Origin: an uncultured Alphaproteobacteria bacterium
GTDB lineage: Bacteria; Pseudomonadota; Alphaproteobacteria; HIMB59; GCA-002718135
Direction of reading: 5' to 3'
Length of the DNA stretch: 64,000 nucleotides
NCBI GenBank assembly: GCA_902584805.1
Contig: CACIBE010000003.1
Span: 62,001-126,000, forward strand
This document shows, piece after piece, positions 53,217-55,492 of this stretch. The notes beneath the pieces were generated by a model. That model was not told the DNA's origin. It did not search any database and saw only the letters and a program-made list of their open reading frames with translations. The position numbers and the translations under genes are program-made. Each line of letters begins with the position of its first letter. The first letter of the stretch is position 1.

Positions 53217-54029
53217 TCATTTATTTGGAGTTTTTAATGTATAAGAAGTCCACAAAGAATGCCATTTAGCATAATTATCTTTTTTCTTATTACTTCCTTC
53301 AATTATAACAACACTTTCAATTAGATATTTTGTGTTTTCTTTAAATAAGTAATCAAAATGTCCAAACTCGTTTGTTCTAAGATATTCTTTTTTAAAATAA
53401 CCATTATATAGACTCATAATAGAAACCTTATGATTAGGCAGTATTTTATTTTTATATTCTAATTGAATTCTCTTACTTTCATTTAAATTTTTAATAGGAT
53501 TGTCTAAAAAAATTAATTCAAAGTCCATATTTGTGTCGATATCTTTACCATCAAAATTTTCCACACTAATTAATGACTTTGCATATCTTTTATAACTTTC
53601 AAAAAAATTTTCTGGATATTTATTTTCTTTATGTTTTTGCGCTAAATTTGGATATCCTTTCTCTCTTGTGAATATTTCAAATTTTACTAATTTTTCATAT
53701 TCAACATATTTAGTAACTGATTCAATTTGTATTACATTTAATCCTTTGAACGTTTTTTTAATATTAAGAGCTGGAATATCGCCTAATCTTCCTTTAATTT
53801 TTAATTTATTATCTTCAGCATGTAGGAATGCAATTTTAAAATATTCTTTTGTAAATGGTATTGGTGATCCTTCAAAATTTTCTCCAATAAATATATTCGC
53901 CACAGCTTTTTCATTATTTGATAAGTGATAATTTTTTGGATCAATCCAAAATTCATGACATAAAGAGATCTTTGTTATTGAAGTTAAGAAAATAATAAAT
54001 ATTAATCTTTTTAAAGTAAATTTCATCAT
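53217..54029 (-). CDS. Periplasmic DUF4198-type protein (candidate metal-uptake accessory)
   Basis: The 270-aa protein has a signal peptide (KFTLKRLIFIIFLTSITKISLC). The next residues HEFWIDPKNYHLSNNEKAVANIFIGENFEGSPIPF match the DUF4198 (NikM-like) opening, in which His-Glu-Phe-Trp sits at the mature N-terminus. The rest is beta-rich with a short Tyr-Glu-Ser region near the C-terminus. DUF4198 proteins often occur next to nickel/cobalt transport genes. Here the neighbour is a HupE/UreJ-type permease read divergently, with the start codons overlapping. A second Met three bases in (54026) is an equal start choice. Confidence 0.8.
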   Translation of the reverse strand: MMKFTLKRLIFIIFLTSITKISLCHEFWIDPKNYHLSNNEKAVANIFIGENFEGSPIPFTKEYFKIAFLHAEDNKLKIKGRLGDIPALNIKKTFKGLNVIQIESVTKYVEYEKLVKFEIFTREKGYPNLAQKHKENKYPENFFESYKRYAKSLISVENFDGKDIDTNMDFELIFLDNPIKNLNESKRIQLEYKNKILPNHKVSIMSLYNGYFKKEYLRTNEFGHFDYLFKENTKYLIESVVIIEGSNKKKDNYAKWHSLWTSYTLKTPNK

Positions 54030-55185
54030 GTTCTCTTATATAAAAATTATAAAGTTATATCTATTTTTAATTCTAGCATGTTTTTTAAATTTATTTTCAA
54101 CATCTTCTATTAGTCATGAAATAAAGCCATCTATTGCAGATTTTACGTATGATGAAAGTTATTTGAATTTCAAAATAAGATTAAACGCTGAATTGATATT
54201 ATCTAATATTGATGCATCTATTGTTTCTAATACCGACTCTTCATCACTAAGTGAAATTTATGATAAATTTAGAATTTTAAGCAAAAAAGACCTTGAGGAA
54301 ATGTTTCAAAATTCTTGGAGTGAAATAAGTTCTAATATTGATATTAAAATTAATAATGAAACAAAGAAAATAAATTTAATTAAAACTGAAGTTGAAGATA
54401 TAAATAATTTTGAAATAAGTAGAGATACGCATGTTTATTTTAGAGTTTTTTTGGATGAAAATTCTGAACAATTTACATTTAAATGGGTTAAAAATTACGG
54501 CCCAATTATTTTAAGAGAGAATAATAATAACAAATTAGAAGATGAATTAGTTACAGAATATTTGCAATCTGGAATTGAATCAAGTCAATTTTTATTTAAG
54601 GAAAATAATTTTAGTAAAACATTTAATAGCTTCGTAAAATTTTTTGTATTAGGAATTCAACATATAATTCCAAAAGGATTAGATCATATTTTATTCATAT
54701 TTGGACTTTTTTTATTTTCATCATCTTTAAAAAAATTAATTTCTCAAATAACTATCTTTACTATTGCTCATTCAATCACCCTTATATTTGTTTCTTTATC
54801 TTTAATGAGAATCAGTCCTCAAATTGTTGAACCTATCATCGCACTCTCCATAGTTTATATAGGATTAGAAAATATTTTTAAAAAATATATAAAAGAATAT
54901 TTAAGATATGTTGTAATTTTGTTTTTTGGATTACTTCATGGTTTAGGATTTGCATTAGTTTTGAGTGATATAGGTTATAGGAGTACGGACTTATTTATAA
55001 ATCTTGTATCTTTTAATATTGGTATTGAAGTAGCGCAAATATCTATAGTATTGGTTTTATATCTGTTGATTGCTTTAAATTTTGCAAAAAATAAAAATTA
55101 CAGAATCTTATTTCAAGTGCCATCATCATTATTAATATCTAGTGTTGGGTTGTATTGGTTTTTTGAAAGAATTAATTTTTTTTAA
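54028..55185 (+). CDS. HupE/UreJ-type membrane protein (candidate metal permease)
   Basis: The 385-aa protein has a signal peptide ending near residue 29, then a HEIKPSIADFTYDE periplasmic opening and about 170 soluble residues. A membrane region of roughly six segments (from about residue 200) follows. The membrane part has the HupE/UreJ_2 motifs: QHIIPKGLDHILFIFGLFLF, ITIFTIAHSITLIF, FGLLHGLGFAL and FNIGIEVAQIS. Family members are tied to nickel or cobalt uptake. No hydrogenase or urease genes are present in this window. The ATG overlaps the start codon of the divergent DUF4198 gene by two bases. Confidence 0.85.
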   Translation: MFSYIKIIKLYLFLILACFLNLFSTSSISHEIKPSIADFTYDESYLNFKIRLNAELILSNIDASIVSNTDSSSLSEIYDKFRILSKKDLEEMFQNSWSEISSNIDIKINNETKKINLIKTEVEDINNFEISRDTHVYFRVFLDENSEQFTFKWVKNYGPIILRENNNNKLEDELVTEYLQSGIESSQFLFKENNFSKTFNSFVKFFVLGIQHIIPKGLDHILFIFGLFLFSSSLKKLISQITIFTIAHSITLIFVSLSLMRISPQIVEPIIALSIVYIGLENIFKKYIKEYLRYVVILFFGLLHGLGFALVLSDIGYRSTDLFINLVSFNIGIEVAQISIVLVLYLLIALNFAKNKNYRILFQVPSSLLISSVGLYWFFERINFF

Positions 55186-55400
55186 TAATAATTGATCAAT
55201 CTAAATCAGCAAAATACCTTTAATCTAATAAATGACTTTGGAGCACAATTGGAGCAGTAAAAGTTTAATTTTATTATATTCTTCCCACTTTTCTCATGTT
55301 ATAAAACTTAATTAAATAGTGAAATTAAACTTAAGTTTTTCTTAGTATAGCTAGGTAAATGGATCTATAAGGAAAAATATTACAACATGAATAAAATAAA
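55186..55400. other. Longest gene-free spacer; phased and inverted repeats upstream of tRNA-Ser
   Basis: No coding region is seen here. It holds an 8-bp direct repeat TTGGAGCA at 55238-55245 and 55249-55256 (period 11). It also holds an 11-bp inverted repeat, AAGTTTAATTT (55261-55271) with AAATTAAACTT (55322-55332), around a 50-base loop. A promoter for the tRNA and dapA should lie here, but I find no consensus hexamer pair I would defend. Confidence 0.5.
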
Positions 55401-55492
55401 GGAGAGATGGGTGAGTGGCTTAAACCACAGGTTTGCTAAACCTGCGAAGGAAGTAATTCCTTCCGAGGGTTCGAATCCCTCTCTCTCCGCCA
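55401..55492 (+). tRNA. tRNA-Ser (anticodon GCT), CCA encoded
   Basis: The acceptor arm GGAGAGA pairs with TCTCTCC, followed by discriminator G and an encoded CCA (55490-55492). The anticodon arm CAGGTTTGCTAAACCTG gives a TTGCTAA loop with anticodon GCT, reading AGC/AGU serine codons. A long variable arm (GGAAGTAATTCCTTCC region) marks a class II tRNA, and the T arm is GAGGGTTCGAATCCCTC. dapA starts 6 bases after the CCA. Confidence 0.97.

Follow-up and report, generated by a model that had tools for sequence, protein, structure and literature searches.

A head-to-head DUF4198 and Ang-1-HupE/UreJ gene pair in marine Alphaproteobacteria and its possible role in nickel capture and import

The divergent gene pair at positions 53217 to 55185 of the window (the whole stretch of 64,000 nucleotides that was analysed) encodes a DUF4198 protein and an Ang-1-HupE/UreJ_2 permease. 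We give a barely better than even chance to the reading that the pair forms a two-gene periplasmic module for the capture and import of a transition metal, most likely nickel. This reading is based on the protein families, the His-Glu motifs at the expected mature starts, the sequence and fold matches, the head-to-head pairing, the joint presence and absence of the two genes, and a urease operon in the same genome. This kind of system, with its N-terminal-His metalloproteins and the anglerase, has already been published, and the pair is a further member. What the present analysis adds is the near-constant head-to-head pairing in the sampled Alphaproteobacteria, the joint gain and loss in a slot beside a tRNA gene, and a DUF4198 clade with a probably different metal site.

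Gene products and their predicted metal-binding N termini

The features of the locus were as follows.

53217..54029, minus strand: DUF4198 gene, 270 aa (ORF list; PF10670); likely signal peptide at residues 1-24 and predicted mature start at His25-Glu26, with the cleavage point placed by eye and by the conserved HE motif
54024..54026, minus strand: second in-frame ATG of the DUF4198 gene, 1 nt from the HupE ATG
54027..54030, both strands: overlapping ATG codons, 54029-54027 (minus) and 54028-54030 (plus)
54028..55185, plus strand: Ang-1-HupE/UreJ_2 gene, 385 aa (ORF list; PF13795)
54115..54522, plus strand: predicted Ang-1 metal-binding domain, residues 30-165, mature N terminus His30-Glu31 (9GCE sequence and fold match)
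54640..55077, plus strand: HupE/UreJ_2 transmembrane permease domain, residues 205-350 (Pfam)
55401..55492, plus strand: tRNA-Ser(GCT), at the right edge of the variable slot in which the pair sits

The initial annotation had taken the two products for members of metal-uptake families that are exported or sit in the membrane. The Pfam profiles backed this description, with 59.3 bits for PF10670 (DUF4198; cut-off, 34) and 147.1 bits for PF13795 (HupE_UreJ_2; cut-off, 24.5). The window HupE protein was 90% identical to its homologue in record AG-337-I02. Its Ang-1 domain matched 9GCE both by sequence (phmmer E 1e-12), with His30 of the window protein aligned to His1 of 9GCE, and by fold (Foldseek E 2.2e-12; TM 0.88 by target length; model pLDDT 80.8). 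In the alignment of mature Ang-1-HupE proteins, His1 was invariant in 31 of 31 rows, and invariant His, Asp and Glu residues were present in the HupE/UreJ_2 permease of all 31 homologues; no HupE His motif was found in L153 and L165. His1 was likewise invariant in 36 of 36 mature DUF4198 proteins, an alignment from which the L169 protein was left out by choice. The rows of both alignments were picked with the help of the His motif and cut at it, so that the invariance of His1 means that the motif is in place and is not independent proof of cleavage.

The model of the mature DUF4198 protein (pLDDT 93.7) showed Zcp as its closest fold (Z 22.4, rmsd 2.8, 214 aligned residues). The model also matched nickel-bound IsDUF4198 (9GCB; Z 19.7, rmsd 3.1, 202 aligned residues), with model residue 1 corresponding to chain residue 1. 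Sequence searches of the PDB with the DUF4198 proteins and profiles returned nothing significant, neither Zcp nor IsDUF4198. Besides His1, Glu120 and Glu147 were present in 36 of 36 homologues and His109 in 29 of 36, and no second His was invariant. Mature residue 18 is Ala in the window protein, and this column was occupied mainly by Ile, Leu, Ala and Val. Compared by residue number only, the His1/His18 nickel site of IsDUF4198 thus does not appear to be reproduced in these homologues. The metal site of the present DUF4198 clade probably differs from the solved nickel site.

In the proposed mechanism, the DUF4198 protein would be exported and, after the predicted cleavage, would bind metal with its free N-terminal His. 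The Ang-1 domain of the inner-membrane permease would catch metal with a free N-terminal His of its own and may then pass it to the HupE pore, while DUF4198 could serve as a soluble collector or relay for Ang-1-HupE. The two genes would be transcribed divergently, in the present lineage from putative promoters inside the signal-peptide-coding start of the partner, and the urease encoded elsewhere in the genome would be the most likely nickel client.

Conservation of the pair and its genomic slot

A search for the pair in other marine genomes, proposed in the initial annotation, recovered it at same-genus and at distant loci. At the distant loci (36-46% identity), DUF4198 was located directly upstream on the opposite strand in 23 of 23 cases (L120-L143 without the fragment L125); 17 of these partners were present as ORFs and the other 6 were recovered by tblastn, with L121 cut by a contig end. 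A sample of 385 alphaproteobacterial genomes yielded matches to the DUF4198 profile in 28 and to the HupE profile in 102. The DUF4198 gene was head to head with an Ang-1-type gene in 27 of the 28 genomes having this DUF4198 type (25 oriented directly, G000 and G078 by coordinates), and the exception, G283, showed no such neighbour. An unbroken HupE match of almost full length was found in 26 genomes; 24 of them have this DUF4198, which is missing from G472 and G116. The HupE frame of G145 was partly masked. In abundant ocean bacteria, the pair links two recently described metalloprotein families in a divergent arrangement that is almost constant. According to the accessible part of PMC12537917, DUF4198 is one of the prevalent neighbours of Ang-1. 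We found no text in the literature on the head-to-head DUF4198/HupE arrangement itself, which may be shown in Fig. 4c of that paper.

In G226 (L163) and G330 (L164), an Ang-1 domain gene without a HupE permease was still head to head with DUF4198.

Within the family, 110 genomes, most of them incomplete, were divided into 57 with both genes, 3 with HupE only, 1 with DUF4198 only and 49 with neither, so that 57 of the 61 carrier genomes hold both genes. The three HupE-only cases (G005, G043 and G069) were fragments at contig ends. Apparent decay was observed at two loci: an additional, incomplete HupE copy interrupted by four in-frame stops (L062, G007:C7) and a DUF4198 gene matched as two pieces with stops (L031, G011:C3).

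The genomic slot was compared by searching for dapA in 12 pair-less genomes and reading the 8 loci with an orthologue. The interval between orf114 and tRNA-Ser was empty in L199, L202 and L205 and was filled by another gene in L203; the left border of L200 and L201 was not within 1.5 kb, and L198 and L204 stopped at a contig edge. Because the slot is empty or differently filled in pair-less genomes and the two genes occur jointly, the pair looks to have been gained and lost as a unit. Such joint gain and loss at one slot allows sister genomes that have the pair to be compared with those that lack it, which would help in asking which trace metal shapes their niches.

Between the HupE stop and tRNA-Ser(GCT), at 55183-55400, the nucleotide identity to same-genus loci showed a sharp step. 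The median identities were 96.8 for gatA, 96.7 for gatB, 95.6 for orf114, 93.6 for DUF4198 and 93.9 for HupE on the left side and in the pair, and 83.8 for dapA, 83.4 for smpB and 87.9 for the relA-like gene on the right (38-54 of 54 loci per segment). The HupE-tRNA spacer aligned over most of its length in 2 of 54 same-genus loci. These values suggest a putative recombination boundary near tRNA-Ser.

Start-codon spacing and regulation

The initial annotation had stated that the starts overlap and leave no intergenic space, and this was borne out, the two ATG codons having bases 54028-54029 in common. With no spacer, each promoter must sit within the coding region of the partner, unless one gene is transcribed from further away. 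We compared the starts at the 55 same-genus loci, that of the own genome among them, where both could be read; loci lacking one or both starts (L055, L056 and L059-L062) and duplicates (L001 and L063) were left out. In 52 of the 55 loci, the DUF4198 gene has a start at a distance of 1 nt from that of HupE, whereas the literal 2-nt overlap was possible in 38, in 37 through the first DUF4198 ATG and in 1 through an earlier HupE ATG; a 2-nt gap separated the starts in 2 loci. Because the second-start position recurs in 52 loci and the first ATG in 37, the conserved feature is the location of the starts within 2 nt of each other and not the common bases. The second DUF4198 ATG (54024-54026), as the more conserved start, is probably the one used.

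The tightness of this spacing was set against a background of 464 kb of the own genome (the window and 20 stretches of 20 kb), in which divergent ORF pairs were called mechanically. Among 55 divergent ATG-ORF pairs, with a median spacer of 74 nt, 5 including the present pair had a spacer of 10 nt or less, which indicates that such close divergent starts are uncommon in the own genome, though not unique to this pair. When GTG and TTG starts were also allowed, 9 of 54 pairs were as tight. Two of the four other tight ATG pairs overlap by 30 and 52 nt and may be spurious calls. Two other divergent ORF pairs of the own genome have their ATG starts 0 nt (L188:10285/10286) and 1 nt (L187:10106/10108) apart.

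For the 48 distant loci, start pairs were listed if they left a signal peptide of 15-40 residues; the starts in use are not known at these loci, and several choices were allowed per gene. L120, L121 and L144 showed no start in this range. In the 46 usable loci, the closest start pairs ranged from overlaps to 177 nt, and in several relatives the genes stay head to head with 50 to almost 200 nt separating them. The 2-nt ATG/ATG overlap of the window was possible, given these several starts per gene, in 6 of the 46 (L123, L131, L147, L149, L150 and L166), four of which (L147, L149, L150 and L166) belong to genomes of 3.3-4.6 Mb.

The initial annotation had proposed that the geometry would couple the expression of the two genes. 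This may be so, but searches for regulatory signals gave little, and wide spacers occur in several relatives. The promoter scan of the pair returned 13 sigma-70-like sites against 21.2 expected by chance, none convincingly placed for either start; no terminators were found in the scan of the pair region, and no regulator site was identified for the pair. Variation at synonymous sites was low over codons 2-16 of DUF4198 (p=0.038) and codons 10-25 of HupE (p=0.020), and low values occurred in control genes as well, at codons 2-9 of dapA (p=0.019) and codons 10-25 of gatA (p=0.036), all with five windows per gene and uncorrected p values.

We lean modestly towards the view that the start overlap has no regulatory meaning, and that a conserved divergent pair has a drifting spacer which is often squeezed to nothing, above all in streamlined genomes. 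The wide range of spacers seen for this pair, which reaches from overlaps to almost 200 nt, the four other divergent ATG pairs within 10 nt in the own genome, and a synonymous constraint at the 5' ends that is not stronger than in some control genes all support this view. However, the head-to-head order is retained in 27 of 28 genomes, and the close or overlapping starts are not confined to small genomes, although several starts per gene were allowed in that count. An improbable proposal is that the near-zero-spacer design is itself selected. The signal-peptide-coding start of each partner would then double as a promoter, one regulator at the common start would set the ratio of DUF4198 to Ang-1-HupE, and the DUF4198 clade may hold metal through His1 and acidic residues (mature Glu120 and Glu147) with no second His, as a different site in the same fold. 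This proposal is favoured by the readability of the same 2-nt ATG/ATG overlap in some relatives of 3-5 Mb, which streamlining alone would not explain.

Metal specificity and comparison with known systems

The initial annotation had reasoned that no urease is nearby and that the metal hence serves another enzyme. There is indeed none next door, but the second step was not supported, as a complete urease operon is present elsewhere in this genome, on contig C9 (L174:2862-7741), with its genes ureDABCEFG assigned by Pfam. No recognised nickel transporter was found among the urease operon genes in the 14 kb read; next to the operon lies an ABC system whose binding protein belongs to SBP_bac_1. With such an operon in the genome and no recognised transporter in it, the nickel proposal can be tested directly. 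Another nickel supplier for urease, of a family such as NikA, NiCoT or CbiM-like, may exist elsewhere in the genome. Across the 110 family genomes, 41 showed both pair and urease, 20 the pair only, 24 urease only and 25 neither (p=0.08). With the completeness figures at hand for 103 of the 110, the p value was 0.03 at a completeness of at least 70% (66 genomes), 0.50 at at least 80% (40 genomes) and 0.62 at at least 85% (23 genomes). The association between pair and urease is thus weak. A search for Ni-SOD matched 0 of 110 family genomes, and the control genomes were silent too. Against a nickel module stand this weak association, the copper preference of RbAng-1a, the closeness of the DUF4198 fold to Zcp (zinc, copper, cobalt), the lack of a second invariant His in DUF4198, and the two genomes with an Ang-1 domain but no permease.

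HupE-type permeases and DUF4198-like components are linked to nickel and cobalt uptake. This general link favours cobalt import for B12, which the initial annotation had named as a possibility and which we now consider very improbable. In its favour, cobalt also stabilises IsDUF4198, according to the accessible text of PMC12537917. However, the check for B12 riboswitches near homologues, which the initial annotation had put forward, turned up no cobalamin riboswitch, either in the window or at any of 29 relative loci, and the own genome (85% complete) showed no match to Met_synt_B12 or to the B12-binding domain. That domain matched 14 of the 110 family genomes at E 0.001 and 9 of the 110 over the cut-off, the pair carriers G055 and G057 among them.

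It is less far-fetched, though still unlikely, that the same module imports copper, e.g., for respiratory oxidases. In the available part of PMC12537917, RbAng-1a is reported to prefer copper in vitro (Kd of 73.6 nM for Cu and 220 nM for Ni); mature position 41, Asp in the window protein, is Asp or Asn in 28 of 31 homologues; and urease was not found in 20 of the 61 pair-carrying genomes, which are incomplete. In contrast, the same source describes IsDUF4198 as preferring nickel (Kd 18 nM), with no stabilisation by copper, and the permease domain is of the HupE/UreJ type, a family that the accessible parts of PMC12537917 and PMC4771312 present as nickel permeases. Import of zinc under zinc starvation appears slightly less likely again. 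It draws on Zcp as the best fold match of DUF4198 and on the fold matches of Ang-1 that come next after 9GCE, the zinc-related ZrgA and PA4063, at a weak E near 1e-3. In addition, zcp of N. gonorrhoeae was used as a zinc- and Zur-regulated control transcript in the portion of PMC13343924 at hand, its identity with the PDB Zcp being taken from the name. A scan of 23 junctions (L153 and L154 left out, as their mature starts were not both located) with a Zur-site matrix built from five Caulobacter sites in PMC4176598 found one partial Zur-like site in the L156 junction, which none of 117 control stretches equalled; no such site stood out in the other 22 junctions. Also against zinc, ZnuA occurs in the own genome and in 76 of the 110 family genomes, and it is not positively associated with the pair (40 of 61 genomes with the pair and 36 of 49 others), and zinc slightly destabilises RbAng-1a according to the accessible text of PMC12537917. 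In family genomes such as G067, G037 and G083, ZnuA relatives occur as open frames of about 490-530 aa whose matches are split in two, suggesting a long insert in the middle.

The preferred reading, a capture and import module most likely for nickel, can be compared with known systems. The HupE/UreJ nickel permeases of SAR11 and Roseobacter show a similarly patchy presence of HupE in marine alphaproteobacteria; the available text of PMC4771312 does not describe an Ang-1 domain or a DUF4198 partner. Zcp (PDB 9MHI-9MHN), which was solved with zinc, copper and cobalt, shares its fold with the DUF4198 protein at 16% identity, and the title of its entry lists H29, H31 and H142 as mutated residues, suggesting another site. 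IsDUF4198 (9GCB), as presented in the accessible part of PMC12537917, has the same beta-sandwich fold and an N-terminal His after a predicted signal peptide, whereas the window protein shows no significant sequence match to it and no His18 at the same number. The RbAng-1a-HupE/UreJ-2 anglerase (9GCE), described in the same available text, shares with the window protein the order of signal peptide, N-terminal-His beta-sandwich and HupE/UreJ_2 permease. In contrast to the anglerase, the window protein has Asp at position 41, where RbAng-1a has the ligand Asn41, and the start of its gene lies no more than 2 nt from that of a divergent DUF4198 gene.
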